From a virus: 27,538 nucleotides of DNA. Both the position numbers and the translations under genes were made by a program. A model generated the notes under the pieces. The model ran no database searches. It was given only the letters and a program-made list of their open reading frames with translations, and was not told the DNA's origin. Positions 1-21,810 of the stretch are shown piece by piece. The DNA is taken from positions 1 through 27,538 of the IMG/VR virus record IMGVR_UViG_3300020167_000153; one strand, written 5' to 3'. The number at the start of each line of letters is the position of its first letter. The stretch's first letter is position 1.

Positions 1-2
1 GT

Positions 3-959: not shown

Positions 960-971
960 TGATTCCGCTTG

Positions 972-987
972 CACTTTATCGTTAATC
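972..987 (+). promoter_or_regulatory. Upstream motif CTTTATCGTTA (copy 1)
   Basis: The motif CTTTATCGTTAATC lies in the divergent gap between terL and the first head gene, about 20-30 bases before the start codon. Near-copies occur before the genes at 7300 and 18797, and a shorter version (TTATCG) lies on the minus strand before the early operon. It could be a phage promoter element with TATCGT as the -10, or a regulator site. No good -35 is seen here. Confidence 0.4.
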
Positions 988-1004
988 GCGACAGATTGCA
1001 ACCC

Positions 1005-1271
1005 ATGAACACGTTGACGCTCGATACCAAGGACGAACGCTTCGCCGCGCTGGCGGACTGTGCGGATGGCGAAACCAAGACGGTGACGGTCACAGGCACC
1101 GTGACGCGAGACGCCAGTGGTGGCCTTTCGCTGGCCGTGGACAGCGTGGATTACGAGGCGAAGGAACCGGAGGAGGAAGCTGTGGAAACGCCGGTGGCGG
1201 AGAAGCCGGCCAAGGGCGGTCCCGACCATGCGGCGGTGATGCTGTTGGTGAAGAAACCCGCCAAAGCCTGA
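1005..1271 (+). CDS. Small acidic hypothetical protein heading the head operon
   Basis: This is an 88-residue protein that I do not recognise. The ATG follows the leader GATTGCAACCC, with no Shine-Dalgarno. The first half is rich in Thr and Val with alternating hydrophobics (KTVTVTGTVTR), suggesting beta-strands. A Glu-rich stretch follows, and then a Lys/Pro/Ala-rich tail. Its stop overlaps the portal start (TGATG), so the two are probably translationally coupled. The position before the portal gene suggests a minor virion or morphogenesis role, but this is inference from context. An upstream in-frame start at 969 would add 12 residues; I prefer the ATG at 1005 because it leaves room for the upstream promoter-like motif. 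Confidence 0.6.
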   Translation: MNTLTLDTKDERFAALADCADGETKTVTVTGTVTRDASGGLSLAVDSVDYEAKEPEEEAVETPVAEKPAKGGPDHAAVMLLVKKPAKA

Positions 1272-3673: not shown

Positions 3674-3963
3674 TCCGCTTCACTGAAAACCCGCTCGGGC
3701 TGAAGGACGTGAAAGACCTCGCCCTATGGCTGGCAAAACCGGAGGCGCAGATGGCCCGCGCCGTGGCGGAGGCGAAGATTGCCGCGCACGAGGTGGAGTC
3801 GGTCGCCGCCGCCGTTGATGCACTGAAGGGCGGGCGCGATCACACCTTCCAAGCGGACGAACTCCTCGCGGAAACCCAGTGCTACCGCCACTTCCTCGCC
3901 GTGCTCGACGAGCTGGCGAAGGGGGACGACCTCTACACCGGCCAGGTCAGCCTCGGCCAGTAA
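3670..3963 (+). CDS. Small helical protein between portal and scaffold
   Basis: This 97-residue protein is not recognised. The GTG start overlaps the portal stop as GTGA, so translation is probably coupled to the portal gene. The sequence is mostly amphipathic helix (AQMARAVAEAKIAAHEVESV, then YRHFLAVLDELAKGDDLYTG). This resembles the small helical accessory proteins often found between portal and scaffold genes, though no family is identified. A structural accessory or assembly role is inferred from its position only. Confidence 0.55.
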   Translation: MIRFTENPLGLKDVKDLALWLAKPEAQMARAVAEAKIAAHEVESVAAAVDALKGGRDHTFQADELLAETQCYRHFLAVLDELAKGDDLYTGQVSLGQ

Positions 3964-3970
3964 CTCTCCC

Positions 3971-5395: not shown

Positions 5396-5460
5396 GCCAA
5401 ACGGCGTGAGCATGGTGCTTGGGTCGGGCGGCTGTAGCAACGCAGCAACCGATACAAACT

Positions 5461-7191: not shown

Positions 7192-7211
7192 CCACGGGCG
7201 CGACGTTACGG

Positions 7212-7245
7212 ACCCGGCGAGGCGATCCCTCGCCGGGTTTTTGTT
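7212..7245 (+). terminator. Rho-independent terminator after the capsid gene
   Basis: A perfect 11-bp stem (ACCCGGCGAGG paired with CCTCGCCGGGT) with a five-base loop is followed directly by a run of T. It sits 20 bases after the capsid stop codon and just before a promoter-like stretch, so it probably separates the capsid transcript from the next operon. Confidence 0.92.
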
Positions 7246-7256
7246 GAACAGACCCC

Positions 7257-7286
7257 TTGCTTTATCGTTATCCGTTGGGGTAATCT
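7257..7286 (+). promoter_or_regulatory. Candidate promoter with CTTTATCGTTA motif (copy 2)
   Basis: After the terminator comes TTGCTT, then 18 bases, then TAATCT, which resembles a sigma-70-like -35/-10 pair. The motif CTTTATCGTTATCC lies across the -35 and spacer. The start codon follows 14 bases after the -10-like hexamer. A new transcript starting here fits the terminator upstream. Confidence 0.5.
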
Positions 7287-7299
7287 GCCGCAACTCAAC

Positions 7300-7809
7300 A
7301 TGAGCAAGCACTACTTCAAGAAGGAGCAAGTCAGCAACAAGGTCATCGGCATCGGCGGCGTGCCGCTGCCGTTCGAGGTGTTGCCGGGCAACACGGGGTT
7401 GCTCCAGTTGGACGATGAATCGCCCGAGGACACCAATCTGGTGACGTTGCTGGACCGGGTGGTGGGCAAGCAGGGCGTGGTGCGGATTGATGAAGGCACC
7501 TACTTGGAGTTAAAAAAAAAGCGACTCTCGGTGACGTTCGCGCCGCGCTCCAGCGATATGCAGCCAGTCATCCGAGTGGTCAACCCAATCGTCCCGCGCA
7601 AGTCGTCCGCAGCCCCGGAGGTGGAGGATGCGCCCCCTGTGGCAAGCGTCGCGCCCAGTCCTGAACCGCTCGTAATGGAACCGCTCGCCAGTGATGTGCC
7701 CGCGCCGTTGCTGGTGCCGCGGCGGGGCCGACCTCCGAAGATCAAGGCTCCCACCATGCCCGTCAGCATGGCCCCGGTGCGGGAGGAAGTGGTGAGGATT
7801 GCTCCCTGA
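7300..7809 (+). CDS. Hypothetical protein with C-terminal AT-hook-like motif
   Basis: A 169-residue protein. The first 85 residues are compact and beta-rich (IGGVPLPFEVLPGNTGLLQL). Residues 90-135 are Pro/Ala/Ser/Val-rich and probably unstructured. Residues 141-147 are RRGRPPK, an AT-hook-like basic motif that in other proteins contacts the DNA minor groove. Codons 71-74 lie in a nine-A run (TTAAAAAAAAAG) that contains the -1 slippery heptamer A AAA AAG in the correct frame, so a second product is possible. The gene starts a new transcription unit after the capsid terminator and ends three bases before the next start. Its role is unknown; a DNA-contacting head-completion or internal protein would suit the motif. 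Confidence 0.6.
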   Translation: MSKHYFKKEQVSNKVIGIGGVPLPFEVLPGNTGLLQLDDESPEDTNLVTLLDRVVGKQGVVRIDEGTYLELKKKRLSVTFAPRSSDMQPVIRVVNPIVPRKSSAAPEVEDAPPVASVAPSPEPLVMEPLASDVPAPLLVPRRGRPPKIKAPTMPVSMAPVREEVVRIAP

Positions 7810-7812
7810 CCC

Positions 7813-10251: not shown

Positions 10252-10255
10252 TTCA

Positions 10256-10303
10256 ATGCGCTTCGACTACCTCATCAACACGCCCTGCGAGACGCCGGGT
10301 TGA
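10256..10303 (+). CDS. 15-residue peptide ORF, apparent truncated copy of the next ORF
   Basis: The peptide reads MRFDYLINTPCETPG and begins five bases after the preceding stop. It shares the pattern M-x-[FW]-D-[YF]-[LI]-I-x-x-P-C with the start of the next ORF. This implies a duplicated N-terminal module that lost its downstream part, or a family of very short peptides. Whether it is translated is unknown. Confidence 0.3.
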   Translation: MRFDYLINTPCETPG

Positions 10304-10320
10304 TCGTCAATTAACCTCCA

Positions 10321-10443
10321 ATGAACTGGGACTTCATCATCCATCAACCGTGCGTGGGGACCGCTGAAGACGGCTCGACCAGTTCGTCGTCGTCGTCGAG
10401 CACGTCGGACACCTCCACCAGCTCGACCACCACGGCATCGTGA
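10321..10443 (+). CDS. 40-residue Ser/Thr-rich small protein
   Basis: The protein begins MNWDFIIHQPCVG and then becomes almost pure Ser and Thr (about 22 of the last 27 residues). Part of the tract is (TCG)5, but AGC, TCC, ACC and ACG codons are mixed in, so it is not a simple repeat expansion. Its stop overlaps the GTG start of the first glycosyltransferase (GTGA), implying coupled translation. A Ser/Thr tail next to glycosyltransferases suggests a glycosylation acceptor; this is inference. Similar Ser/Thr tracts occur in the capsid protein and in the two proteins starting at 18797 and 19049. Confidence 0.5.
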   Translation: MNWDFIIHQPCVGTAEDGSTSSSSSSSTSDTSTSSTTTAS

Positions 10444-11108
10444 GGCTGCTGGTCAAATTCCCAACGCGCGGCCGGCCCAAGCTGTTCTGCGAAACCCTGC
10501 GCCAGTGGCGGTCGCATCTCTCGGGCCGGAACCAGGTCCGCTTCGTGGTGTCCATTGATGAGGATGACTCGCTCATGAACTCGCCCATCATGCACGGGTT
10601 CTTGAGCCGGCAGAAGAATCTCGACTGGCACGTAGGACACTCCAAGACGAAGGTGCAGGCCATCAACGCGGACTTGGACAAGCTGGGCGACTACGACGTG
10701 CTCGTGCTGGCCAGTGATGACATGGTGCCCGTGGTGCGCGGTTATGATGACGTGATCTGCCAGACGATGCGCCGTGTATGGCCGGGGCTGGATGGCGTCC
10801 TGCACTTCGAGGATGGGTTCAACCGGAACGGGCTGAACACGCTGCCCATCATGGGGCGCAAGCTCGTGGACGACTGGGGCTACCTATACCATCCGGCTTA
10901 CAAAAGCCTCTTCTGCGACCAGGAGTTTCAAGACGTGACCGAGCGGGACGGACAGAGTGAGAAGCTGGCCCGGTGCATCATCCGGCATGATTGGATTGGC
11001 GCGCACAAGCCAGACTCGCTGCACCTCAGAAACGAAGCCATGAACGGACCTGACCGTGACACTTACCACGCGCGGCGCGCGGCCAACTATCCGAGGGCGT
11101 GGACATGA
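10440..11108 (+). CDS. Glycosyltransferase, GT2-like (GT-A fold)
   Basis: A 222-residue protein whose N-terminus (LLVKFPTRGRPKLF) matches the opening strand of small phage and bacterial GT-A glycosyltransferases. S92-D93-D94 after a hydrophobic strand (DVLVLASDDM) is the likely nucleotide-sugar/metal DxD-type site. The C-terminal half has the acceptor-side pattern with a conserved-looking Asp/His region (YHPAYKSLFCDQEFQDV). Length is short but complete for a single GT-A domain. There is no membrane segment, so it is cytosolic. It starts at GTG overlapping the Ser/Thr-rich ORF and ends overlapping the next glycosyltransferase (ATGA), making it the first of a coupled series. Sugar and acceptor are unknown. 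Confidence 0.7.
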   Translation: MRLLVKFPTRGRPKLFCETLRQWRSHLSGRNQVRFVVSIDEDDSLMNSPIMHGFLSRQKNLDWHVGHSKTKVQAINADLDKLGDYDVLVLASDDMVPVVRGYDDVICQTMRRVWPGLDGVLHFEDGFNRNGLNTLPIMGRKLVDDWGYLYHPAYKSLFCDQEFQDVTERDGQSEKLARCIIRHDWIGAHKPDSLHLRNEAMNGPDRDTYHARRAANYPRAWT

Positions 11109-11668
11109 GCGTGTTCCGACTCAGCATCTTGGTGCCCACGGTGCCCGAACGAGCGCACTTCCTGCGCCGGCTGCGCTCCGTGCTCGACCGGCAAATCCAC
11201 GGGAAGCCCGTCGAGCTGCTGCTGGATGACCGCCCGCGCCCGGTGGCCATCGGGGCCAAGCGCAACGCCCTGCTGGACCGCTCGCGGGGCGACTACGTGG
11301 CCTTTGTGGATGACGACGATCTGGTGAGCACGAACTACATCAGGGATGTGCTGGCGGCGTTGGAGAACAACCCCGACTGCGCCGAGCTGCGAGGAATCAT
11401 CACGACCGACGGCGGCAAACCCAAGGATTTCCATCACACAATCGAATGCAAAGCATGGTGCGAGAAGAACGGAGTCTATCTTCGGATGCCCAACCACCTG
11501 AACGCGGTGCGACGCGATATGGCGTTGCAAGTGCGGTTTCCCGAGACGAACTTTGGCGAGGACCACGACTACTCCAAGCGGTTGCTCCCGCTGCTCAAGA
11601 CGATGGGCGCGGTGCCGCGCGTGATTTACCTTTACCAGTCGAGAACCAAGAAGCCGGAGTTCCGGTGA
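11105..11668 (+). CDS. Glycosyltransferase family 2 protein
   Basis: A 187-residue GT-A enzyme. I chose the ATG at 11105 because it overlaps the previous stop as ATGA, the coupling seen throughout this block; a GTG six bases upstream is also in frame. The opening strand is FRLSILVPTVPERAHFL. The segment IGAKRNALLDRSRGDYVAFVDDDD is a classic GT2 stretch ending in the metal-binding Asp cluster D69-D72. A Glu-Asp pair near the C-terminus (NFGEDHDYSKRLLP) fits the catalytic-base ED motif. The protein is soluble, with no transmembrane helix. The donor is not predictable. It probably acts on the same glycan as its neighbours. Confidence 0.85.
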   Translation: MSVFRLSILVPTVPERAHFLRRLRSVLDRQIHGKPVELLLDDRPRPVAIGAKRNALLDRSRGDYVAFVDDDDLVSTNYIRDVLAALENNPDCAELRGIITTDGGKPKDFHHTIECKAWCEKNGVYLRMPNHLNAVRRDMALQVRFPETNFGEDHDYSKRLLPLLKTMGAVPRVIYLYQSRTKKPEFR

Positions 11669-11693
11669 ACCCGATTCACCTACTGCACACGCT

Positions 11694-12602
11694 TTGGATG
11701 TTTCGCTAAAACCGTTTGCCTACGTCTATCCGCCGAACGAGCCAGCGGCGATTGCTGAATGGGTGGGCGCGGAACTGGTGGCGGCTGGCATGGCCGTGTC
11801 CGTGTTGAGCCATCAGAGCAACTTTTCCGAGGTGCTGGCGGTCTGCCAGCGGGCCGAGGCGGTCATCTTTCACGGTGGACTCACTCAACTGTCGTGGCTG
11901 TTCGACACGCCAGAGAAGGTTTCCGCGTGGCATCTCGAAATCCGCAAGCCCCGCGTCGCCATCTCCACGGAAATGCTCTTCTGCGAACCGCCGCAGCACG
12001 GCACGTTTCGTAAGCGCGCACACCAATCCATGAGGGTGATGACGCATCTGGTCGGCCTCAACGATTCGCCCGCTTTGGACGGGGAGAACTTCCGACTGCG
12101 CCAGACGGGTGCGCCGCTGCTGGTCATGCCCGCCGTGGCATTCGCCTTCAGCCGCTACACCAACACGACGCCGTGGGCGCAGCGGCAGGCACGCTACTGC
12201 TTCCTCGGGACGTGGCACGGGATTCAGCGCCAGGTGTTCCTGCGTGAGCTGGTCCGCGAGAGCTTGGTGGACATCCTGAACATCCCCAAGAGCGACCCGT
12301 TGGAAGCCATCGCGGCGTTCAACCGCTACCAAGGCGTCATCAGCCTGCGCGGCAATCACGGCGTCGCCGTCCCGTTCATGCCTCGGCTCATGGAAGGTGC
12401 GGCGTGTGGCTGCTTCGTGTGTGACCTGCAAGATTTGGAACCGGGCCAATGGTCCCAAGCCGTGGCGCGGGTGCGGGACACGGACTGGGCGGCGGCGGAG
12501 CAGCTCGTGGCCGGACATCTCGCCAGCGTGAAACAATTCAGTCCGGTGCCCTACTTCTCTGCGGTAACGTCGTGGCTCAAAGAACACCCCTATGCTGGTT
12601 GA
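11694..12602 (+). CDS. Glycosyltransferase-like protein (probable GT-B C-terminal domain)
   Basis: A 302-residue protein starting at TTG; no ATG or GTG lies upstream in frame after the previous stop. The N-terminal third has alternating strands and helices (AVIFHGGLTQLSWLF) like a Rossmann-type GT-B N-domain. Around residues 215-245 the segment VAVPFMPRLMEGAACGCFVC, preceded by LRGNHG, matches the C-terminal nucleotide-sugar site of GT-B enzymes of the glycosyltransferase group 1 type (R-x-x-E-x-x-A-x-G). It lies between two other glycosyltransferases and overlaps the next gene by 11 bases. No signal peptide or membrane segment is present. A nucleotide-sugar-binding protein without transferase activity is a possible alternative. 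Confidence 0.6.
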   Translation: MDVSLKPFAYVYPPNEPAAIAEWVGAELVAAGMAVSVLSHQSNFSEVLAVCQRAEAVIFHGGLTQLSWLFDTPEKVSAWHLEIRKPRVAISTEMLFCEPPQHGTFRKRAHQSMRVMTHLVGLNDSPALDGENFRLRQTGAPLLVMPAVAFAFSRYTNTTPWAQRQARYCFLGTWHGIQRQVFLRELVRESLVDILNIPKSDPLEAIAAFNRYQGVISLRGNHGVAVPFMPRLMEGAACGCFVCDLQDLEPGQWSQAVARVRDTDWAAAEQLVAGHLASVKQFSPVPYFSAVTSWLKEHPYAG

Positions 12603-13356
12603 CCTTAAAAAATTCTCCGTGCTCGTCTGCGGCTGTGCCCGCGACGTGGAACCGCAACTCCCCGGCGTGCTCGCCAACTTCGCGCGCATCGGGGCGCTGT
12701 TCGGAGCCGCGCGCTATGCCGTGGTGGAGAACGATTCCAAGGACCGCACCGCCGCCATGCTCGCCAGTTGGAAGCGGAGCGACCCGCGCCCGCGCCGGCA
12801 CATCAGCCTCACGGGCCTAGACCGCCGATTCAGGACGCGCACTGAGCGGTTGCCGGAGTGCCGCAACGCGCTGCTCGACGAGCTGTGGCGCGAGCCGGCG
12901 GACTTCATGGTGATGCTGGACATGGACGGCATTTGTCAGGAGCCGATCCCCGAGGCGTCCATCCAGTCGTGCTTCAATTATCCGCTCGACGGATGGGCGG
13001 CGATGACGGCGAACATCTCCAGCAAATACTACGACATCTGGGCGCTCCGCTCTGAGTGGTGCCCCTACGACTGCTGGCAAAAGGTCTGGCACCGTCCCGC
13101 CGGCATGACGCCGGAGGAGGCCATCGAGCAGTTCATCCACGTCCACAAGAAGCACATCCCGGCCAACGCGCCGCCGCTGGAGGTGGAGTCGGCCTTTGGC
13201 GGGCTTGGGGTGTATCAAGTGAGCTTCCTGAAGGGCTGCCGCTACTCGCGCAAGAGCACGTTCCACGATGCCGACGTGGAGCACTGCGCCTTCAATCAGG
13301 CCATCCGGCGTAACGGCGGCAAGGTGTTCATCAACCCAGCCCTCATCATCCGGTGA
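12592..13356 (+). CDS. GT-A glycosyltransferase, CAP59/mannosyltransferase-like
   Basis: A 254-residue protein with a GT-A pattern. The first strand (FSVLVCGCARDVEPQL) is followed by VVENDSKDRT (44-53), the donor-base strand and turn seen in capsule mannosyltransferase-like (CAP59-type) enzymes. FMVMLDMDG (105-113) provides the D-x-D metal site at D110/D112. The later segment AFGGLGVYQVSFLKGCRYS resembles the acceptor-loop GG motif of this fold. It starts at ATG inside the preceding gene and its stop overlaps the next GTG (GTGA). Soluble. The family assignment is by motif pattern only; a generic GT2 enzyme is the main alternative. Confidence 0.65.
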   Translation: MLVDLKKFSVLVCGCARDVEPQLPGVLANFARIGALFGAARYAVVENDSKDRTAAMLASWKRSDPRPRRHISLTGLDRRFRTRTERLPECRNALLDELWREPADFMVMLDMDGICQEPIPEASIQSCFNYPLDGWAAMTANISSKYYDIWALRSEWCPYDCWQKVWHRPAGMTPEEAIEQFIHVHKKHIPANAPPLEVESAFGGLGVYQVSFLKGCRYSRKSTFHDADVEHCAFNQAIRRNGGKVFINPALIIR

Positions 13357-14024
13357 TCTCGCGCATCCTCATTCTCTGTGGTGGCAAAGGCACGCGCTGG
13401 GGCGACTTCCTGAACGTGCCCAAGCAGATGCTCGCGTTGACGGGTGAACCGCTACTGCACCGCACCGTGCGCCAGTTCCGTGCGGCGGTTCCCGGCGTGC
13501 CCATCACCGTCATCAGCCGCGACCTGTCGGCCCCTGGTGTGCCCTCCGTGGACCCGCTTCCGGGCGATCTCAACACCGACAAGTTCGCCTCGTCGCTGCC
13601 GCTCTGGGGGGGCACCGGCAGCACGCTATTTGTCCACGGCGACGTTTTCTTCGAGTCCAAGGACGTGACGGCCATCGTGGCGGCGTGTGCTGACCGCTCG
13701 CTCTGGTTCGGCAATATGCGGTTTTACGAACTGCTGGCATCCTACGTGGCGGCGGACGAGATGGAGGCGTGGATCAACGTCATGCGACACGTCCTCAATC
13801 AGGAGCGCAACCAGCTAACGGCGGGGGGGGCGTGGCGGATGTTGAGGTTGTGGAACAAGTTGCCGGCCGAGAGTGAAGACGGCACTCCCTACCCATTCCC
13901 AAACTATCCGACGCCGCTGCTGGGCTACTTGGATTGCCCCGGCCTGAGTCGGGATTTTGACTACCCGGAAGACTTGGTGCGGTGGCTGACGCTGGTCGGA
14001 AACGAAAAGCTGGCGGCCATGTGA
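13353..14024 (+). CDS. Nucleotidyltransferase-like protein (GlmU/IspD-type fold)
   Basis: A 223-residue protein beginning RILILCGGKGTRWGDF, the G-G-x-G-T-R signature loop that binds the NTP phosphates in sugar-1-phosphate and related nucleotidyltransferases. K-Q-M (VPKQMLALTGEPLL) gives the conserved catalytic Lys and following helix. D97 in FVHGDVFFE matches the metal-binding Asp after the fourth strand. The C-terminal part is shorter and less conserved than in GlmU or RmlA, and there is no left-handed helix domain. The likely role is making an activated sugar for the neighbouring transferases, but the substrate cannot be told. GTG start overlaps the previous stop, and its own stop overlaps the next GTG. 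Confidence 0.75.
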   Translation: MISRILILCGGKGTRWGDFLNVPKQMLALTGEPLLHRTVRQFRAAVPGVPITVISRDLSAPGVPSVDPLPGDLNTDKFASSLPLWGGTGSTLFVHGDVFFESKDVTAIVAACADRSLWFGNMRFYELLASYVAADEMEAWINVMRHVLNQERNQLTAGGAWRMLRLWNKLPAESEDGTPYPFPNYPTPLLGYLDCPGLSRDFDYPEDLVRWLTLVGNEKLAAM

Positions 14025-14746
14025 AAGTCTCCTGCTGCTGTTTGACCTACGGACGCAACGCGCTGCTGGCCGAGGCGGTCGAGTCCTTCATCCGCCAAGA
14101 CTACCCCGACCGCGAGCTGGTCGTGTTCAATACGCTGGCGTCCCAGCAGCTTATCATCCCTCACCCGCTGGTCCGCGTCATCAACCACGCGCCCCGGCCC
14201 ACGTCGCTAGGGGAGACGCGCAACCTCGCCATCGAGCAGTGCCGGGGCGAATTCATCCTGACGTGGGACGATGACGACATCTATCTACCACACTACGTCG
14301 CGTGGCTCGTCGCGCACTTGGACGGCGGCGAGTGGGTGCGCCAGGCGGGCCGGTTCGATCTCACCAGATGGACGGTCACTGGCACCAACGCGCAGGCCAT
14401 GAACCAATTCCTGTTCCGCAAGGCCGCGTGGCGCAAGGCTGGCGGTTATCCGGTCGGGATGGATAGCGGCGAGGATGCTCACTTCTTCAACCGCGTGGCC
14501 GCGTGCCCGCCAGGTCGCAAGGTGGAGTGCGATCCCAGCGAATACGGCTTTCTCTACGGCTGGGACAACGGGGCTTACCACGTCAGCGGGGGCGGGGAGA
14601 ACCAGCCCGGCAAGCCAACGGCGCTTCAGCGGTCGCAGCGCCACATCACCAGCCAGAGCCACCCGCGCGGGCGAGTGACCATCGTGCCGCGATGGCGGAA
14701 GGACTACGTGGCAGAGGCGCGACGCTGGCTGCAACGGGGAGCGTGA
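14021..14746 (+). CDS. Glycosyltransferase family 2 protein
   Basis: A 241-residue enzyme. I set the start at the GTG overlapping the previous stop (GTGA), giving MKVSCCCLTYGRNALL, the normal first strand of GT2; an upstream start would add an implausible basic stretch. ETRNLAIEQCRGEFILTWDDDD carries the nucleotide-sugar site with the Asp cluster D83-D86. MDSGEDAHFFNRV gives the catalytic-base ED motif. Complete single GT-A domain, soluble. It is the last gene of the block before the integron. A GTG overlapping its stop opens a 33-codon frame that runs into the first cassette, possibly the remnant of an interrupted downstream gene. Confidence 0.85.
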   Translation: MKVSCCCLTYGRNALLAEAVESFIRQDYPDRELVVFNTLASQQLIIPHPLVRVINHAPRPTSLGETRNLAIEQCRGEFILTWDDDDIYLPHYVAWLVAHLDGGEWVRQAGRFDLTRWTVTGTNAQAMNQFLFRKAAWRKAGGYPVGMDSGEDAHFFNRVAACPPGRKVECDPSEYGFLYGWDNGAYHVSGGGENQPGKPTALQRSQRHITSQSHPRGRVTIVPRWRKDYVAEARRWLQRGA

Positions 14747-14787
14747 GCCAGCGCGGCGGCTACCAATCTCTACCATTGACACATTCG

Positions 14788-14794
14788 GTTATGT
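14788..14794 (+). other. Candidate attI-like core or left cassette boundary (GTTATGT)
   Basis: GTTATGT resembles the GTTRRRY core cut by integron integrases and lies where the first cassette should begin, between the glycosyltransferase stop and the first cassette gene. A perfect -35-like TTGACA is present just upstream, but no good -10 follows at normal spacing. Assignment is by position and a partial consensus match only. Confidence 0.3.
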
Positions 14795-14810
14795 GGGCGA
14801 CGGTTCGGGC

Positions 14811-15035
14811 GTGCCGACCACAAAAGTCTCTCCGCTCCGCTTGAAAAGACGGCTCGCCTCCACGCTTGGAAAGTTTGCCCGCGGCGTGCCTAAGAGCTAC
14901 TCCCCCGCCGAAATCGCCAAGCGCACGGCGAGACTGCGGAAGGCCCAGAAATCGCGCGCGAAAACCCAGCGCGCACTCCGGCGTGCTAACGATAAGCTCA
15001 GAGACGGCGCACCAGAGACGCCGCCTGCCAACTGA
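14811..15035 (+). CDS. Cassette 1: small very basic hypothetical protein
   Basis: A 74-residue protein (80 if the in-frame GTG at 14793 is used). It is rich in Lys and Arg with a helix-forming middle (YSPAEIAKRTARLRKAQKSR). The segment SYSPAEIAKRTARLRKAQ has no recognised domain, but the charge suggests nucleic-acid binding or interaction with an acidic partner. Its last 50 or so bases lie inside the attC1 site, as is common for cassette genes whose 3' end overlaps the recombination site. No promoter is evident, so expression would depend on readthrough from the glycosyltransferase operon. Function unknown. Confidence 0.55.
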   Translation: MPTTKVSPLRLKRRLASTLGKFARGVPKSYSPAEIAKRTARLRKAQKSRAKTQRALRRANDKLRDGAPETPPAN

Positions 15036-15073
15036 AACGCTCATGCGCCGTTCTCTGGAGCGCATGGTTGGGC
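14984..15073 (+). other. attC recombination site 1
   Basis: The site runs from a degenerate R'' box (TGCTAAC) to a consensus R' box (GTTGGGC). The inner arms GCTCAGAGACGGCGCA and TGCGCCGTTCTCTGGAGC pair almost fully, leaving one extra T and one extra G unpaired, like the extrahelical bases of attC hairpins. The orientation matches the cassette genes. The R''/R' pairing is the weakest part. Confidence 0.75.
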
Positions 15074-15096
15074 GGCACGGTCGAACTGGAACAAAT

Positions 15097-15291
15097 ATGA
15101 AAAAACTGCAAGACACTGACCCGATGCCCTTCGGCAAGCACAAGGGCGAGCCGATGCAAGATGTGCCAGCCAGCTATCTGCACTGGCTCTGGAAGGAAAT
15201 CCAGCACGACAATACGAGCGATGTGGGCGACTACATCCGCCGCAACCTGAGCGCACTGAAACAGGAACACTCCGATGGCGTATGGAGCTAG
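15097..15291 (+). CDS. Cassette 2: DUF3820 family protein
   Basis: A 64-residue protein. The core MPFGKHKGEPMQDVPASYLH followed by WLW is the signature of DUF3820, a small family (once described as a putative quorum-sensing-regulated virulence factor) found in phages and bacteria. The ATG at 15097 is chosen because the family's conserved core starts about ten residues later and because the upstream frame runs through attC1. The gene lies cleanly between two attC sites, with its stop five bases before the R'' box of attC2. Function of the family is unknown. The cassette is less GC-rich than the phage genes around it. Confidence 0.75.
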   Translation: MKKLQDTDPMPFGKHKGEPMQDVPASYLHWLWKEIQHDNTSDVGDYIRRNLSALKQEHSDGVWS

Positions 15292-15295
15292 TGCC

Positions 15296-15424
15296 GCCCA
15301 ACGATTAAGCTGCCCGACCGCTACCCGGTGGCCAGCGTAGAAAGCAAAATGAACCAACAAATAACCAGAGCGCATGGCCGAAGCCGAGGGCGGGTAGCGG
15401 TTCGTGTCCAGCGCATTGTTAGGC
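15296..15424 (+). other. attC recombination site 2
   Basis: R'' GCCCAAC and R' GTTAGGC are complementary at six of seven positions. The inner arms CGACCGCTACCCG and CGGGTAGCGGTTCG pair fully apart from one unpaired T. At about 129 bp the site lies within the known size range of attC sites. The variable terminal loop has no ORF. This is one of the most convincing sites of the array. Confidence 0.9.
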
Positions 15425-15430
15425 ATCAAC

Positions 15431-15643
15431 ATGAAAACACAACTGACTGAACAGAAAATCCGAAAACTGGCTGACGGAATGCTCGACGATTCAATCAAGC
15501 ATCGAGTCAAAGAGGCTGTGCGCCGCAAGAACGCCAAGCAGTTCTTCAATGATCTCATCGTGTCACTCACCAAAGGCAAACGCAAATGGACGCCAACCGA
15601 GCGGATGCAGTTCAATCGCGTGGCGGCGTTCCTTGATGCCTAA
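15431..15643 (+). CDS. Cassette 3: small hypothetical protein
   Basis: A 70-residue protein, MKTQLTEQKIRKLADGMLDD at the start and a basic helical middle (HRVKEAVRRKNAKQFFNDLI). It is mostly alpha-helical with alternating charge. I do not recognise the family. The ATG is six bases after the R' box of attC2, the usual short leader of a cassette gene, and the stop codon TAA is inside the R'' box of attC3 (GCCTAAC). This snug fit between two attC sites supports a real cassette gene. Earlier in-frame starts run through attC2 and are rejected. Confidence 0.6.
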   Translation: MKTQLTEQKIRKLADGMLDDSIKHRVKEAVRRKNAKQFFNDLIVSLTKGKRKWTPTERMQFNRVAAFLDA

Positions 15644-15772
15644 CGGAGAGTTCAGGCGCACAGACCCGCCGTTGAAACCATGACGACACTCGAACAATCC
15701 AAGCCTGCCGACGAAGCCCGCGACTCCGTGCTGCGAAGCGGGTCTGTGTCGTCCTGCAACGATTTGTTACAC
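15638..15772 (+). other. attC recombination site 3
   Basis: R'' GCCTAAC and a slightly degenerate R' GTTACAC flank an imperfect inverted repeat. The inner arms CACAGACCCGC and GCGGGTCTGTG are perfectly complementary over 11 bp. Further out, GTTCAGG and CCTGCAAC pair with mismatches. The methyltransferase frame passes through this site. Confidence 0.8.
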
Positions 15773-16324
15773 GGCAATTTCAAAACCGTCGTAGCTGATC
15801 CTCCTTGGACTTACACCTTCGAGACGAGAAAAACAGAAGTGGCGGGAACTGGCTGGCGAGGCGCACCGCAAAACCACTACTCAACAATGAAGTTCGATGA
15901 CATAGCGGCAATGCCAATCGGCGACATAGCTGCGCCGGATGCAACGCTCTGGCTGTGGGTGGTAAATCCGATGCTCGCCAAAGGCATCGAACTCGTGACG
16001 CGGTGGGGCTTCCAATATCGAAGCCTGCTCACATGGGCAAAGGTGACGAAAGACGGCAACCCGGCAATCGGCATGGGCTACTGGATGCGTGGCTCAACCG
16101 AACACCTGATGCTCGCCACTCGCGGCAAGGTGCAACCGAAAAGTAAAAGCCAACCGACGTGGTTCAAGGCTGGCGTTGGCGAACACTCCGCGAAACCTGA
16201 CCAATCCTATGCAATCATCGAAAAATTCAGTGACGGCCCATATCTGGAACTGTTCGCACGGCGCAAGCGTGACGGATGGACGACATGGGGTAATGAAACC
16301 AGCGGCGACCTGTTTGCCGTGTAA
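15680..16324 (+). CDS. Cassette 4: MT-A70 family adenine-N6 DNA methyltransferase
   Basis: A 214-residue protein if started at the ATG at 15680. The motif D40-P41-P42-W43 is the DPPW catalytic motif of N6-adenine methyltransferases of the MT-A70 group. NHYSTM, followed by LWLWVVNPML and later MRGSTEHLMLATRG and GPYLELFARR, matches the order of motifs in phage and plasmid MT-A70 enzymes. The role is methylation of adenine in DNA, probably protecting phage DNA from restriction. Oddly, the ATG is inside attC3: about the first 29 residues are encoded by the attC of the preceding cassette, and no ATG, GTG or TTG lies wholly inside the cassette before the catalytic core. A TTG straddling the cassette junction (15764) is the only late alternative. 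Confidence 0.8.
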   Translation: MTTLEQSKPADEARDSVLRSGSVSSCNDLLHGNFKTVVADPPWTYTFETRKTEVAGTGWRGAPQNHYSTMKFDDIAAMPIGDIAAPDATLWLWVVNPMLAKGIELVTRWGFQYRSLLTWAKVTKDGNPAIGMGYWMRGSTEHLMLATRGKVQPKSKSQPTWFKAGVGEHSAKPDQSYAIIEKFSDGPYLELFARRKRDGWTTWGNETSGDLFAV

Positions 16325-16411
16325 CGGTGCGGATCAGCGACCGGGCCACACGGGAGGCTCGGATTGCAAGTGAGGCGCGATGGCCCGGTTCGCTGCATCC
16401 GATTGTTAGGG
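16319..16411 (+). other. attC recombination site 4
   Basis: R'' GTGTAAC overlaps the methyltransferase stop; R' is GTTAGGG. The inner arms GCGACCGGGCCA and TGGCCCGGTTCGC pair fully with one unpaired T, in the same place as in attC2. Outer parts GGATCAGCG and CGCTGCATCC pair with a bulge. Confidence 0.85.
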
Positions 16412-16449
16412 CGCAGTTTCCGAGGCTCGAAAATAAGTGAAGAAATATC

Positions 16450-16483
16450 TTGCAACGTAAGCCGCTTACGATAGTCTGTATCC
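16450..16483 (+). promoter_or_regulatory. Leader of cassette 5 with short palindrome
   Basis: Unlike the other cassettes, this one has a 72-base leader before its first ATG. It contains the palindrome CGTAAG-CCG-CTTACG with TTGCAA just before it and GATAGT overlapping its end. This could be a promoter/operator for the HTH protein that follows. The -35/-10 spacing is short (14), so the promoter call is weak. Confidence 0.3.
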
Positions 16484-16657
16484 ATGAAAACGAACAACGA
16501 ACAATTCGAGATGGGACGCAGCCTCTGGATGGAATACGTGCGGGTCAACGGATACGCCTTCGCGCCGAAGCAAGACGGACTGCAAAAGCTGGCCCGCCTA
16601 CTGGACCTGAACGTGCCGTATCTCCGCAAAATGATAAACGCTTTCCTCGAAGCATGA
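16484..16657 (+). CDS. Cassette 5, gene 1: small HTH-like protein
   Basis: A 57-residue protein. The C-terminal half (GLQKLARLLDLNVPYLRKMI) has the length and hydrophobic spacing of a helix-turn-helix, with Leu-Asp-Leu at the turn. The ATG at 16484 is preceded by a palindromic leader. The stop overlaps the next gene's start (ATGA). A small DNA-binding protein followed by a basic partner, with its own leader, resembles the autoregulated pairs often found in integron cassettes, but no toxin is identified. Transcription factor or antitoxin-like roles are inference. Confidence 0.5.
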   Translation: MKTNNEQFEMGRSLWMEYVRVNGYAFAPKQDGLQKLARLLDLNVPYLRKMINAFLEA

Positions 16658-16812
16658 ATCCAGAAGCCCGAAAATACCTCGCCGAAATCGGTCGGCGAGG
16701 CGGACAGAAGAGCAAGCGTAAGCTCACAAAAGCGCAGGCGCGGGCAATGGTGCGCGCACGAACAGCTAAACGCGCCGCTCTGCGCCCTAACGGTGATTCG
16801 GCAACAAAGTGA
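16654..16812 (+). CDS. Cassette 5, gene 2: basic protein with AEIGRRGG motif
   Basis: A 52-residue, strongly basic protein beginning MNPEARKYLAEIGRRGGQKS. The Y-x-A-E-I-G-R-R-G stretch resembles the small KGG-like basic proteins found in phages and bacteria, and closely matches a segment of the phage early protein at 21982-22170. The C-terminus (RPNGDSATK) is encoded by the half attC site, so the natural end may have changed when the site was truncated. It overlaps the preceding gene as ATGA. Possible nucleic-acid binder; function unknown. Confidence 0.5.
   Translation: MNPEARKYLAEIGRRGGQKSKRKLTKAQARAMVRARTAKRAALRPNGDSATK
16784..16806 (+). other. Half attC site 5 (R'' side only)
   Basis: GCCCTAACGGTGATTCGGCA matches the R''-L'' half of the other sites (compare GCCTAACGGAGAGTTCAGGC). 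No R' box follows before intI; instead there are two copies of CATAAC just upstream of the intI start. The last attC seems to have been truncated when the array met intI. Confidence 0.5.
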
Positions 16813-16841
16813 AGCTATTTTTCACATAACAGTCGCATAAC

Positions 16842-17792
16842 ATGACCACCACCGAAGCCATTCAAAAGACCCGCGACGTGATCCGTCTGCGCCACTTGAG
16901 CCGCGCCACGGAGGAGAGTTACTGTGGGTGGATTGACCGCTTCGCTCGCTTTGTTTCGGAGCGATGCCAGACGGGCAAGCCTGAACATAAGATGGAGGCA
17001 TTCCTCACGCAACTGGCGCAACAGGAGGTTTCAGCGTCCACGCAGAACCAAGCCTTCTGCGCCCTGCTGTTCTTCTACCGCGAGGTGCTGAAGGTTGAAC
17101 TTGGCAAGGTGGACGCCCTCCGCGCGCAGCGGCCTGTCATGGTCCGCACTGCCCCGTCGGTCGAAGACGTTCGCGCCCTACTGCCCACCGTGCCGGACGT
17201 GGGCGGCTACCCGACCGGGTTGATCGTGCGGATGCTTTACGGGATGGGCCTGCGGGTGTCGGAGCCGCTGAACCTGCGGGTCAAAGACGTGCTCCTGTCC
17301 GAATCCCGGCTCATCATACGCGGGGCCAAGGGTGGCAAGGACCGCGTGGTGGCGCTGCCGTGCTCGCTGGTCGCTGAAATCAAGGCCCAACTCACCCACG
17401 CCCGCGCGGTCTGGGAGATGGACAAGGCCAACGGCCTGCCCGTGGCGCTGCCGGGGCTGCTGTCGAAGAAGTATCCGGCCTGGGCGTTCTCGTGGCAGTG
17501 GGCGTGGGTGTTTCCGGCGGCGCGGCCTTGCCGGCATCCGCGCACGGGCGAGACTGTCCGTTGGCGCTGTCTGGAGTGCAACGTGCAGCGCGCTGTCCGG
17601 CAGGCCGCGCGCCCGCTGGGCTTGTGCATCACCCCGCACCACCTCCGGCACGGCTACGCGACGCACTGCCTGAACCGGGGCGCGAACGTGAAGGCTCTCC
17701 AAGAAGCGCTTGGACATTCCAATGTTGAGACCACTATTGGCTACTGTCACGCGGAGGCGTGTAGCGTGCCGAGTCCGCTGGAGTCGATGTGA
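16842..17792 (+). CDS. intI: Integron integrase (IntI-type tyrosine recombinase)
   Basis: A 316-residue site-specific recombinase. The N-terminal SAM-like core-binding domain spans about 1-105. The catalytic residues are R138 (GLRVSEPL), K166 (GGKDR), H266 and R269 (HHLRHGYAT), H292 (GHSNVETT) and nucleophile Y301. Residues about 200-226 (LLSKKYP...WQWAWVFP) are the additional patch found in integron integrases and absent from XerC/D and ordinary phage integrases. The C-terminal SPLE also fits IntI proteins (SPLD). It folds bottom-strand attC hairpins and recombines them with attI or other attC sites. The gene is GC-rich like the phage genes, unlike the cassettes, and its stop overlaps the start of the next glycosyltransferase (GTGA). 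It appears intact. Confidence 0.92.
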   Translation: MTTTEAIQKTRDVIRLRHLSRATEESYCGWIDRFARFVSERCQTGKPEHKMEAFLTQLAQQEVSASTQNQAFCALLFFYREVLKVELGKVDALRAQRPVMVRTAPSVEDVRALLPTVPDVGGYPTGLIVRMLYGMGLRVSEPLNLRVKDVLLSESRLIIRGAKGGKDRVVALPCSLVAEIKAQLTHARAVWEMDKANGLPVALPGLLSKKYPAWAFSWQWAWVFPAARPCRHPRTGETVRWRCLECNVQRAVRQAARPLGLCITPHHLRHGYATHCLNRGANVKALQEALGHSNVETTIGYCHAEACSVPSPLESM

Positions 17793-18718
17793 CACTCTCG
17801 CTGCTCATCACGTCGCACAACGACAACGAGGAGTGCCGCCTCACCGTCGAGTCCGCGCGCCAGAATGCTGTCGGCGACGTGGAGATTGTTGTGCTGGATG
17901 ACGCTTCACCTGCCCCGCTCCCGACCCAGTCTGGCACCGTCCACTGCCGCACCTCGCTGCGCGCCGGGGTTGGCCCTGGCCGATACCTGGCCGCGTGCCG
18001 GGCGTCGGGTGACTGGCTCTTGATAGTGGATTCTCATTGCCGGTTCGAGCCGAATTGGGATGTCGCCGCTCTGGCCGTGGCGGCCAGCCGTTCCGAGCGC
18101 GTCATCTGGAATTTCCAGTGTGTCGGACTGGCCCCGGGCGACATGGACATGAGCAAGCCCCACGGGCACTACCACGGATCGAACATACTCTTCACCGGCC
18201 CCGACCCGAACCGACCCGCGACATGGCAGGTGCTCGAAGGCAAGTGGCAGCCGGACCAAGGCGATGACGTTCCCGTGGGTGGATTGATGGGTGCCTGCTA
18301 CATGGTCCAGCGGGATTGGTTCTTCCAGATGGGCGCACTCAAGATGTTGCGCTACTGGGGGAGCGACGAACCCGACCTAGCCTTGCGCTCGTGGCTGTGT
18401 GGCGGCGAGTGCCGGTTCACCAAGGCGGTGCGCGTGGGGCACCAGTTCCGGCAGGTGGCCCATCATCGCAACCCGACGGGCGCGATGGTCTTCAACAAGA
18501 TGCTGGTGGCCCTGGTCTGCCTGCCCCAGTTGGCAGCGGAACGGCTCATCGCGGACCTGCCCAAGCAGTATCGGCTGGCCGGCGACATCGCCGTGGCGCA
18601 CAAGTGGATTGCCGAGGTGCGGCCAGTCGTCGAGTGCGAGCGGGCGTTCCTGCTGGCGCAGCAGGCCATGAGCTTTGAGGCGTATTGCGAACGGTTTGCG
18701 GTGGCGCGGTTCTGGTAG
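17789..18718 (+). CDS. Polypeptide GalNAc-transferase-like glycosyltransferase (GT27-type motifs)
   Basis: A 309-residue GT-A enzyme. D81-S82-H83 (LIVDSHCRFEPNW) is the D-x-H metal motif of GT27 enzymes, in place of the usual DxD. GGLMGACYMVQRDWFFQMG then W190-G191-S-D193...R200-x-W-x-C-G-G follows the family segment GGL...W-G-G-E...R-x-W-x-C-G-G; the catalytic-loop Glu position is Asp here. V216-G217-H218-x-F-R221 matches VGHxFR, which supplies the third metal ligand and the loop Arg. The D-to-H spacing (H83 to H218, 135) is near that of human GalNAc-T2. There is no lectin domain, signal peptide or membrane segment. Known GT27 enzymes transfer GalNAc to Ser/Thr; here the sugar is unknown. 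It overlaps intI and lies just before Ser/Thr-tailed virion genes. Confidence 0.8.
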   Translation: MTLSLLITSHNDNEECRLTVESARQNAVGDVEIVVLDDASPAPLPTQSGTVHCRTSLRAGVGPGRYLAACRASGDWLLIVDSHCRFEPNWDVAALAVAASRSERVIWNFQCVGLAPGDMDMSKPHGHYHGSNILFTGPDPNRPATWQVLEGKWQPDQGDDVPVGGLMGACYMVQRDWFFQMGALKMLRYWGSDEPDLALRSWLCGGECRFTKAVRVGHQFRQVAHHRNPTGAMVFNKMLVALVCLPQLAAERLIADLPKQYRLAGDIAVAHKWIAEVRPVVECERAFLLAQQAMSFEAYCERFAVARFW

Positions 18719-18796: not shown

Positions 18797-19045
18797 GTGC
18801 CGATTCCGCTCCCGTCTGAGTTTTACGCGGTTGTTCCAGACAACTGCACGAGCGCGGCTTGCAACCCTTCCTGCGCCGAGGTGCGCGCAGCGTTGCTGGA
18901 CTTCCCGTCGGTCATGTTCCGCTTCGTGAGCGGTTGGTCCAACAATGCGGGCGGCATGGGGCAGGATTTGAAGGACCAGATTTGCGCGCTGCCCTGCAAC
19001 GGGGGCGGGGGCGGTTCGACTTCATCCTCATCTTCCGACGCTTGA
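18797..19045 (+). CDS. Small virion-region protein with Gly/Ser-rich C-terminus
   Basis: An 82-residue protein starting at GTG. Residues 1-68 form a compact Cys-containing domain (PLPSEFYAVVPDNCTSAAC; later LKDQICALPCNGG). It is paralogous to the N-terminus of the next protein: both start M-x-x-P-x-P-S-x-F and end the domain in C-x-x-x/x-x-x-C before a Gly linker. The C-terminus is GGGGGSTSSSSSDA. A domain-sharing pair with and without a fibre suggests a virion anchor or adaptor. The Ser run next to a GT27-like enzyme makes it a candidate glycosylation acceptor. The role is inferred from neighbours. Confidence 0.6.
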   Translation: MPIPLPSEFYAVVPDNCTSAACNPSCAEVRAALLDFPSVMFRFVSGWSNNAGGMGQDLKDQICALPCNGGGGGSTSSSSSDA

Positions 19046-19048: not shown

Positions 19049-19831
19049 ATGGCGAGACCTACCCCATCCCAATTCGAGCAACTGATTCCCGACCCGAACG
19101 CTCCGGTCTGCGACCAGTTCAGCAACTACTTCCAAGCAACAGTGCTGATGAAGGACTGGGTGCGCTGGCACTACAACGACGACGGCTCGATGACGGACGA
19201 GTTCGTGGACCTGGTTTGCAACACGGGCTGCGGCGGGAGCGGCAGCACCACGAGCACCACGACGAACGGCGGAGGCGGACACGGATCGGTTAGCTTCACC
19301 TCGGCGGGGAATTACAACTGGACGGTGCCGGCGGGGGTGACTTCCATTGACGTGATCGTGGTGGGTGGCGGCGGCGGCGGCGGTGGTAACGCCGCGTTCT
19401 CAACGCCGCCGCAAGTTGCTTCGGGTGGTGGCAGTGGCGAGATGCGCGCTGGCACCATCGCGGTCACTCCAGGTGGCATAGTGGTCCTGACGGTCGGCTC
19501 CGGCGGTGGGCAGAACGGCATCGGAATCGGTTCCGCTGGCAGCGCGTCCTTGCTGGCCTTCGACGCGACCAACTATCAAGCCAATGGGGGTGGCGGCGGG
19601 ACGCCGGGGCGGTGTGGCAGCGTCACCCCCATTGCGGGCGGCAGCGCCGGCTCTGGTGGTTCCGGTGGCACCGGCACCAACGGAAACGCGGGCGGCAACG
19701 CCACGGACACGCCCTGCACGAACGGCATCGGCGGGGCTTCAGTCGGACTGACTGCTGGTGCCGGGTCGGCGGGAAACACTGGCAACAATTCTCATCCCGG
19801 CTCGACTGGTGCGGTCCGCATCACCTGGTAA
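19049..19831 (+). CDS. Gly-rich tail fibre-like protein
   Basis: A 260-residue protein. Residues 1-65 are the same anchor-like domain as the preceding protein. A Ser/Thr linker follows (GSTTSTTTNGG). From about residue 80, SFTSAGNYNWTVPAGVTSID leads into VIVVGGGGGGGG and then repeated Gly/Ala/Asn/Ser segments up to a closing AVRITW strand. This NWTVPAGVTSIDV plus Gly-rich repeat layout is well known in phage tail fibre and receptor-binding tips, where polyglycine-II-like folds can expose host-binding loops. A surface or host-recognition role is likely. It starts four bases after the previous stop. Confidence 0.7.
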   Translation: MARPTPSQFEQLIPDPNAPVCDQFSNYFQATVLMKDWVRWHYNDDGSMTDEFVDLVCNTGCGGSGSTTSTTTNGGGGHGSVSFTSAGNYNWTVPAGVTSIDVIVVGGGGGGGGNAAFSTPPQVASGGGSGEMRAGTIAVTPGGIVVLTVGSGGGQNGIGIGSAGSASLLAFDATNYQANGGGGGTPGRCGSVTPIAGGSAGSGGSGGTGTNGNAGGNATDTPCTNGIGGASVGLTAGAGSAGNTGNNSHPGSTGAVRITW

Positions 19832-19836: not shown

Positions 19837-21810
19837 GTGCCCGACCCGTTCAAAACCCTCACGCTCAAGCCGCTGCTGACCGCGCTGGACACGCGCAGCG
19901 CGATTGTCGACGTGCCTACAGGCAGCTTCCGCATGAAGCTGAACCTCATGGTCACGGAGGACCGCAAGCTCTGCCGGCGGCCCGGCCATCGCCGCCTCAT
20001 GGCCGACGCCGCGCTGCCAAACTCCGACTGGCACGACCAAGGCGACTGCTCCACGTCGTCGCCCCTCCGCGAGCCAGCCTACCTCTTGCGCGAGACGACC
20101 GACGCCTACGGCACGCGCCGCCTCGTCGCTGGCAAACGGGACCAGTTGGTCGTGCTCAACACCAACCTCGGCACATGGACGCCGCTCATGCAGGGCGGCA
20201 TCTTCGGGGGCATTGCCACGAGCGCGGCTCGCTGGCAAATGGTCACGCTCGGGAACTACGCCGTCTTCACCAACGACTTCGACGCCCCGGTTTACTGCCG
20301 GCTGGGCGCGCAACCGTCCATCTGTGGCGAGACGCTGGTGCAACAGGTGCCCGACCTCCGCGACATCATCAAGCTGTCACAGGCCGGCGTCGCCGCCACG
20401 TTTAACGGCACGGTCTTCCTCATGGATACCGTCGAGGATGGGGCGCGCTGCCCCTCTCGCGTCCGGTGGTCCGCGCTCAACTCGGTGCTCCTGTGGACCG
20501 CCACGCTGGACGCTGCCGGGATTCCCTCCAACATCTCCGGCTACCAGGATTTGCCCTACGGCGAGAAGGTCATCGCCGCCAAGGAATTGGCCGGCAACCT
20601 CTACATCTTCACCGAGACGAGCATCTGGCGCTGCTACGTGGCCGGCGGCACGGGCATCTACGGGTTCACCCTGCTCTACTCCGAGCCGCGCAACCGAGCT
20701 GCGTGTCTGACCTATCCAAACACGCTCGTCTCCACGGGCGACAACCTGTTTTACTTCGGGTCGGACGGCATCTACCGCTTCAACGCCTACCAACCCGCGC
20801 CCGTCCGCGACGAGTGGCTGCACCGGGCCAACGGTTTGATGTTCACCGATCTGGACCCGGCCTGCTGCGATGGGCCAGTGGGCGAAGTCTATCCCGACCA
20901 CGCTGAGATTTGGTGGAGCTACGCCCTGCCCGGCGACGGGTGCGCCAACGCGCGGACCTTCGTGGCGAACTACCAGTCGAACACCGCCGACTACGTGGAT
21001 CACGGCTACTCCGCCTTCGCCAACTACCGGCCCGACACGCGCCAGACGCTCGACGAATGGCTGGACCAGTATTGCACGAGCGACTTCGCCGGGATGTGCG
21101 CGCTCCTTGGCAACGCGGTGCCCGACGACTTCTGCAACGAGTGCAACACCAGCCAGCTCTTCGTCGGGGCCAGCACGGAAGACCTGTGTGTCAAGGAAAT
21201 CGGCGGGGCTTACTCACGCGAGCGCTGCACCAATGCCGCCACCGGCCACGGCGCGACTGGCATTGGCGGGGTGTATGTGCCGTTCACGGGGGCGTATGCG
21301 CTCGATGGTTACTTCTCCCTGATGCGCGGGCTGTTCCCGCTGGGCTACTTCGACGGGGAGAAGGTCGTGCGACGATTCCTCGTGGACAATTCGGCTGGGT
21401 TCCAGCTCGAAACGGTCCCGGATTTCCGCCTCCGTCTCGGCACCAGCTACAAAGCCCTCGACCCCAACCCGGCGGGCAATCCGTTCGCGTTCGGCTACGC
21501 CTTCGACAACGACTTTGCCGCCAGTGTCGAGCCGTTCTTCACCGTGGATGGCAACGCCTGCCAAGTGGTGTGGATTCAGGCGGGGGATGACTTGCCGGTG
21601 GATTGCTTCGACACCGCGGACGCCCAGCAGCACGCCAACGACTTCACCAGGGACGGCGGACCCGCTACGGAGTGGGCGACGTTTGCCCAGGGTCGGTTCC
21701 TCAACTTCGAGCTGGTCGTCGTGGGCAAGGACGCCAGCGGCTCCGTGGTGCCCCCGACTGGGGGAGCGGTTTGCTTTAGCCGGATCGAGGTAGAGGCGCG
21801 CGTCGTGTAG
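19837..21810 (+). CDS. Tail nozzle-like protein (T7 gp12/P22 gp10-type, beta-propeller)
   Basis: A 657-residue protein from the GTG at 19837, six bases after the previous stop; upstream codons run through the Gly-rich gene and are rejected. It is dominated by short beta-strands with repeated W/Y-x-x-L-x-x patterns: VRWSALNSVLLW, NLYIFTETSIWRCY, then SEPRNRAACLTYPNTLVSTG and NLFYFGSDGIYRFN. This blade-like pattern is typical of the propeller in podovirus tail nozzle or tail-needle-hub proteins. It carries several Cys pairs (CCDGP, FCNECN). The nozzle would close the tail and guide DNA exit. Assignment is by fold pattern and position as the last virion gene. Confidence 0.55.
   Translation: MPDPFKTLTLKPLLTALDTRSAIVDVPTGSFRMKLNLMVTEDRKLCRRPGHRRLMADAALPNSDWHDQGDCSTSSPLREPAYLLRETTDAYGTRRLVAGKRDQLVVLNTNLGTWTPLMQGGIFGGIATSAARWQMVTLGNYAVFTNDFDAPVYCRLGAQPSICGETLVQQVPDLRDIIKLSQAGVAATFNGTVFLMDTVEDGARCPSRVRWSALNSVLLWTATLDAAGIPSNISGYQDLPYGEKVIAAKELAGNLYIFTETSIWRCYVAGGTGIYGFTLLYSEPRNRAACLTYPNTLVSTGDNLFYFGSDGIYRFNAYQPAPVRDEWLHRANGLMFTDLDPACCDGPVGEVYPDHAEIWWSYALPGDGCANARTFVANYQSNTADYVDHGYSAFANYRPDTRQTLDEWLDQYCTSDFAGMCALLGNAVPDDFCNECNTSQLFVGASTEDLCVKEIGGAYSRERCTNAATGHGATGIGGVYVPFTGAYALDGYFSLMRGLFPLGYFDGEKVVRRFLVDNSAGFQLETVPDFRLRLGTSYKALDPNPAGNPFAFGYAFDNDFAASVEPFFTVDGNACQVVWIQAGDDLPVDCFDTADAQQHANDFTRDGGPATEWATFAQGRFLNFELVVVGKDASGSVVPPTGGAVCFSRIEVEARVV

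Follow-up and report, generated by a model that had tools for sequence, protein, structure and literature searches.

Does a tailed phage encode an enzyme that places sugars on the proteins of its own particle? The question is raised by an open reading frame at 17789-18718 (plus strand) of a 27,538-base IMG/VR virus record, which was analysed over its whole length and is called the window below. The frame starts with GTG, overlaps the end of the upstream frame 16842-17792 by 4 bases (17789-17792) and encodes a 309-residue GT27-like glycosyltransferase (GT) consisting of a catalytic domain only. An earlier note had read this protein as a phage homologue of the polypeptide GalNAc-transferases (GalNAc-Ts) of mucin-type O-glycosylation, with D-x-H, WG-x-[ED] and VGHxFR motifs in GT27 order and at nearly GT27 spacing. 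Motifs and spacing were both confirmed: the protein contains D81-S-H83, MGACY, WGSDE (190-194), SWLCGG (201-206) and VGHQFR (216-221), with 109 residues from D81 to W190 (107 in GalNAc-T2) and 137 from D81 to the C-terminal His, H218 (135 in GalNAc-T2). A D.H-WG-GH.F pattern at GT27-like spacing, picked post hoc, arose in 1 of 200,000 shuffled versions of the protein and, among the 14,208 open frames from every locus examined, was confined to GT27-like family members. The GC3 of the gene (0.83) is the same as that of the phage genes, and we therefore see no recent import. Window positions 1-17188 recur with 100% identity in another IMG/VR contig (L003), so the arrangement up to the inside of the integrase gene was assembled twice, in samples that may or may not be independent.

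Family placement, fold and active site

In a Pfam search the phage protein matched only the general Glycos_transf_2 model (PF00535; residues 4-91, 33.9 bits against a cut-off of 23.3), with no lectin match. In a phmmer search of PDB sequences, GalNAc-Ts were the only matches at E < 0.001 (best 6.4e-16). The same was true of the homologue in L004 (39% identity) and of a more distant tandem enzyme in L008, while GalNAc-Ts made up 16 of the 17 PDB matches of the L005 homologue, the remaining one being a weak N-terminal match to another GT. As a specificity control, a GT2 glycosyltransferase of the same window (14024-14746, plus strand; PF00535) gave no GalNAc-T match in this search. A family profile built from 16 phage sequences matched GalNAc-Ts over the whole domain at 5.9e-35 to 2.3e-22, with 124.5 bits for GalNAc-T10 (5.9e-35) and 83 for Toxoplasma GalNAc-T3, as well as chondroitin synthase (67 bits, 2e-17); its remaining PDB matches were limited to the N-terminal half. 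The solved GT27 enzymes that matched come from animals and one apicomplexan only, and identity between the phage family and GT27, GT7 and chondroitin synthases is about 20%. GalNAc-T matches alone are no proof of GT27 function, since a Cytobacillus GT with a canonical WGHED has GalNAc-Ts (6.8e-21) among its matches, but also chondroitin synthase and numerous GT2 enzymes.

An AlphaFold2 model made with the phage alignment (pLDDT 92.2, pTM 0.91) gave the same placement. The best 50 Foldseek matches were all GalNAc-Ts, and VIA-align ranked all 29 GalNAc-T entries first (Z 26-31, rmsd 2.1-2.8), followed by 6p61 (Z 22.1), K4CP (21.5) and B4GALNT1 (21.0) as the best structures outside GT27. Among predicted viral proteins the nearest were other phage GTs, with weaker matches. 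Sequence and structure searches both rank GalNAc-Ts first, so the outcome that the earlier note had named as refuting its claim, assignment to an unrelated GT2 subgroup with no GT27 match, did not arise. Residues 1-309 of the model superpose on residues 136-440 of GalNAc-T2 (Z 31, rmsd 2.4), and from this full-length superposition we take the phage protein to be a bare GalNAc-T-like catalytic domain. All 309 residues are used by that domain, and a ricin-type lectin domain and membrane parts are absent.

Aligned on the model, the Mn ligands D224, H226 and H359 of GalNAc-T2 correspond to D81, H83 and H218; judged by this alignment, the second refuting outcome of the earlier note, a predicted structure with the three residues far apart, did not arise either. 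Kept donor residues (GalNAc-T2/phage) are R201/R58, R208/R65, W331/W190 and R362/R221, and D176/D38 and G308/G168 are kept as well. D81 and H83 are invariant across the 16 family rows and H218 is present in every row reaching that position, while R221 is missing from some relatives. For the GalNAc-T2 residues other than D176, R201 and N335, functional roles follow Table 2 of PMC4388629. The flexible loop differs (H365/A224 and Y367/H226), with Tyr at position 226 in L004, L005, L019, L021 and L023, and so does the GalNAc pocket, where A307-G308-G309 of GalNAc-T2 is M167-G168-A169 and E334 is D193.

A further difference lies at the xED-Asp position (N335 of GalNAc-T2), at which GalNAc-T2 and GalNAc-T10 have Asn or Gln and the phage protein has E194, invariant in every family row reaching it. 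The retaining families GT27 and GT60 form one clade with the inverting GT7 and GT2-CHS, and in the inverting members of this clade the xED-Asp is the base (PMC7185993). An acidic residue at this position leaves an inverting mechanism possible for the phage enzyme, and on this ground we class the family as a GT27-like sister family instead of a member of GT27. Judged from its sequence, the enzyme could be inverting or could use another sugar. What stands of the earlier reading is homology to GalNAc-Ts, by sequence and by fold; its mucin-type chemistry is made uncertain by the missing lectin domain, the changed pocket and the Glu in place of Asn/Gln.

Relatives, gene order and the adjoining integron

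The gene is carried by at least 10 further viral lineages, with relatives in L004, L005, L012, L013, L019-L026, L027 and L028 and, from a whole-record search, in contigs of L069, L070, L072 and L081. The family was found after adding one bacterial homologue, and then the phage matches, to the profile. A single-sequence search with the phage protein gave no relative in the viral contigs or in 50,697 isolate phage records, and a profile from two animal GalNAc-Ts gave none in the viral or bacterial collections. In the bacterial genomes sampled, all Pseudomonadota, matches at the threshold used covered mostly the N-terminal GT2 half and a few reached profile position 220, so that no bacterial donor lineage was found in this group. 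Some phage proteins carry two GT27-like domains in tandem (L006 6684-9509, L007 6528-9944 and L008 7986-9893), apparently fused, by eye, to a methyltransferase-like part in L006 and to a radical-SAM-like part in L007; two of these three loci encode many Ser/Thr-tract proteins. In the L072 contig, the GT27-like domain of L156 8738-10357 has an N-terminal extension of about 230 residues.

The position of the gene is conserved. It precedes, often directly, a virion structural protein of PHROG 3287 (19897-21810 in the window, plus strand) in the window, L004, L012, L013, L019-L025, L028 and L069. Upstream lies a glycosylation cluster, all on the plus strand: a glycosyltransferase of PHROG 14945 (10440-11108), a GT2-type glycosyltransferase recognized by family matches (11099-11668), a gene without family match (11694-12602), a glycosyltransferase weakly like Glyco_tranf_2_4/CAP59, below Pfam cut-offs (12592-13356; 64-65% identity in L021 and L025), a MobA-like NTP-transferase that is a possible sugar-nucleotide maker (13353-14024; PF12804) and the GT2 enzyme used above as control. 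L021 and L025 keep the full order GT10440-GT11099-11694-GT12592-NTP-GT14024-GT27-like, and in both the genes that come next encode, in this order, a small Ser/Thr-tailed protein, a Gly-rich one and the tail protein.

Directly upstream of the GT27-like gene, at 14985-17792, we observed a complete-looking integron in this tailed-phage contig with its terminase, capsid and tail genes. Its integrase (16842-17792; TIGR02249, 268.1 bits against a cut-off of 265) sits at the distal end of the array, in the orientation of the cassettes. Four cassettes have matching R'/R'' ends (gttgggc/gcccaac, gttaggc/gcctaac, gttacac/gtgtaac and gttagggc/gccctaac), and three full inter-cassette sites and one upstream site form attC-like hairpins folding at -37 to -56 kcal/mol; counting GTTRRRY does not raise attC sites above chance, while cassette-end pairing and folding do mark them. 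One cassette encodes an MT-A70 methyltransferase. GC3 is 0.34-0.63 in the cassette genes and 0.82-0.83 in the integrase and GT genes, from which the integrase looks long resident and the cassettes recent. To the left of the window start, L003 1-480 has a short frame flanked by a GTTATGC and a GCTAAC box, which may be a second cassette in this phage with attC ends. Eight relatives yielded no integron integrase, and in L021 and L025 the site is occupied by a methyltransferase-like gene or small genes. Phage integrons have been published; those described in virulent phages are clusters that lack an integrase (Qi et al. 2023, PMC9892861). The window is like them in its attC-bounded cassettes, methyltransferase cassette and integron integrase, and unlike the virulent-phage cases in that an integrase is present, with phage-like GC3 and beside the GT gene.

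Ser/Thr tails as candidate acceptors

Ser/Thr tracts in adjoining virion genes, to which the earlier note had drawn attention, are indeed found in both genes that follow. A small Cys-containing protein (18797-19045, plus strand) has a Ser/Thr tail (STSSSSSDA) and ends in GGGGGSTSSSSSDA; its homologues lie directly downstream of the GT gene in L019-L025, with tails SSSSSTPT or SASSSTTSA. The Gly-rich protein after it (19049-19831, plus strand; PF21722, Gly_rich_2; homologues in L019-L025) has the linker GSGSTTSTTTN. Upstream of the cluster, a frame at 10321-10443 (plus strand) encodes a 40-residue peptide that is half Ser/Thr (DGSTSSSSSSSTSDTSTSSTTTAS), and a similar small peptide is encoded upstream of the homologous GT in L025. 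In the small proteins at 10321 and 18797, the Ser/Thr composition of the tails is kept in relatives while the sequence changes. All three products are candidate acceptors, as is the major capsid protein.

The capsid protein (5458-7191, plus strand; 577 residues) has an HK97 fold, which the AlphaFold2 model (pLDDT 77) places within residues 58-552, with phage VP1 (Z 14.8) and the crAss001 capsid (Z 14.6) as structural matches. Beyond the folded part extends the C-terminal tail YPPATSSSTTTSAA. Capsid tails of GT-positive relatives read GTTTTTEPA (L004), PTSTTSTTIP (L028 contig), GGTTTTTTTPH (L081), TLTTTTTTTAPQ (L024 contig), ETTSTTSTTFAP (L012 contig) and SATSTTTTTTLG (L069 and L070), with TTT only in L025/L026; L072 is the sole positive phage with a GT27-like gene and no capsid Ser/Thr tail. 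A capsid Ser/Thr run of at least 4 was present in 9 of 11 GT-positive contigs versus 0 of 17 GT-negative contigs, these being gene-negative relatives with contigs of at least 30 kb (Fisher 8e-6), an association that counts as one independent contrast since the GT-positive phages form one clade; a phylogenetic test of GT against capsid tail accordingly saw a single change of state and had no power. In the L025 contig, the profile match of the capsid gene L147 contains one in-frame TAA, which may be an error, an interruption or a start-site artefact.

Outside this clade, a Ser/Thr-tract gene overlaps the homologue in L008 and several lie close to it in L006, while no long tract was found near the homologue in L007 or L027. 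Long-tract genes numbered 8 of 94 in other-lineage loci, a small sample to which three of five contigs contribute, against 1 of 276 in clade loci and 1 of 404 in negative relatives. In L005, a 204 kb virus contig, a 428-residue protein (6414-7700) in which some 80 consecutive residues are nearly all Thr is encoded about 50 bases upstream of the GT27-like gene. A possible adhesin of the window, an 812-residue protein at 7813-10251 with chitobiase C-terminal-like and Fn3-associated domains (PF13290, PF13287), has a homologue with a poly-Thr tract in L025. Taken together, the view of virion Ser/Thr tracts as substrate of the GT has gained circumstantial support.

Proposed role, alternatives and known systems

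Because the phage encodes a GalNAc-T relative together with coat and tail proteins whose ends are target-like Ser/Thr stretches, it probably sugar-coats its own particle. We judge it fairly likely that 17789-18718 encodes a GT27-like phage protein O-glycosyltransferase for virion Ser/Thr tails, with the cluster supplying or extending the sugar. We infer that the enzyme is active, with a UDP-sugar as donor and a protein as acceptor: a soluble, stand-alone enzyme would bind nucleotide sugar and a divalent metal through D81, H83 and H218 and transfer one sugar to Ser/Thr residues where virion proteins of the same phage have disordered tails or linkers. Putative targets are the C-terminal tail of the capsid protein, the two small proteins (10321 and 18797) and the 19049 linker; PATSSSTTTSAA, GGGGGSTSSSSSDA and GGSTSSSSSDA, and from L005 the poly-Thr, would be candidate acceptor peptides. 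The glycosyltransferases and nucleotidyltransferase at 10440-14746 would then supply or extend the sugar, and the particle would leave the cell bearing a glycan coat. The sugar may be GalNAc, GlcNAc, Glc or another, and the bond alpha (retaining) or beta (inverting).

Host surface glycans are the acceptors of many GT-A enzymes from phages and bacteria, and GTs that resemble this one in the N-terminal half are frequent in bacteria; the Cytobacillus GT, for one, matches GalNAc-Ts (6.8e-21) and chondroitin synthase alike. A GT27-fold enzyme acting on O-antigen, capsule or a lipid-linked sugar, for example to block superinfection, with the Ser/Thr tracts as unrelated spacers, is nevertheless unlikely, as in many phages the gene lies among virion genes and adjoins that of a tail protein, the cluster showed neither a membrane segment nor a flippase or similar partner, and the nearest solved enzymes by sequence and fold all act on protein Ser/Thr. 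It is likewise rather improbable that the enzyme is no initiator and extends a sugar that a different cluster enzyme had attached to a virion protein. The cluster does hold several further GTs, sugars are the acceptors of GT7 and of chondroitin GalNAc domains, which among GT-A enzymes are closest to GT27 (PMC7185993), and the invariant Glu at the xED-Asp position suits an inverting sugar-on-sugar enzyme; against this, sequence and structure are closer to protein-modifying GT27 than to chondroitin synthase, and tract proteins are direct or near neighbours of the homologue in L005, L006 and L008.

A stricter form of the favoured protein-glycosylation reading would make the enzyme a true GT27 member that transfers alpha-O-GalNAc exactly as in mucin-type glycosylation. 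The full-domain fold match and the shared metal and donor ligands agree with it, but the invariant Glu where GT27 has Asn/Gln335, the Met and Ala in place of A307 and G309 and the missing lectin domain leave it doubtful. An overlap of its start codon with the stop codon of the integron-type integrase would suggest that the gene is cargo of the adjoining integron, without virion role. However, the stretch behind the GT gene showed no attC site, and the GC3 of the gene is like that of phage genes and unlike that of the cassettes; this very improbable explanation was rejected once relatives were found to have the gene in the same position but no integrase.

Beyond the window, we propose tentatively, as a plausible reading that we stop short of calling likely, that tailed phages possess a mucin-like protein O-glycosylation of their own, in which a catalytic-domain-only GalNAc-T relative starts sugars on capsid and tail Ser/Thr tails, the family maybe standing near the branch point of retaining GT27 and inverting GT7/chondroitin enzymes. 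A phage family with a GalNAc-T catalytic domain and capsid Ser/Thr tails would give a minimal soluble protein O-glycosyltransferase, provide a well-defined hypothesis in which Ser/Thr tracts of phage proteins are substrates and offer a new handle on the origin of GT27. In the open-access literature searched we found no published phage GT27, which is not proof of absence, and one statement in PMC5504323 holds O-GalNAc on Ser/Thr to be absent from bacteria.

Compared with CAZy GT27 (GalNAc-T2, -T10 and -T3, PGANT9 and Toxoplasma GalNAc-T3), the phage enzyme shares the GT-A fold over the whole protein, the DXH and C-terminal His, the donor residues and nearly the motif spacing, and differs in having no membrane anchor or ricin lectin domain, a changed pocket and loop, a Glu after the E334 position and a phage as its source. 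With the GalNAc domain of chondroitin synthase (GT2-CHS, K4CP) and with GT7, which belong to GT27's GT-A clade (PMC7185993), it has in common the acidic residue at the xED-Asp position; chondroitin synthase scores lower (2e-17 versus 5.9e-35 for GT27; Z 21.5 versus 31), and chondroitin-type acceptors are sugars. As described in PMC11652166, citing Freeman et al. 2023, mycobacteriophage virions have O-glycosylated capsids and/or tails and phage-encoded glycosyltransferase genes, and the sugars matter for antibody recognition. The present phage likewise encodes its own glycosyltransferases, a likeness drawn from that citing description.
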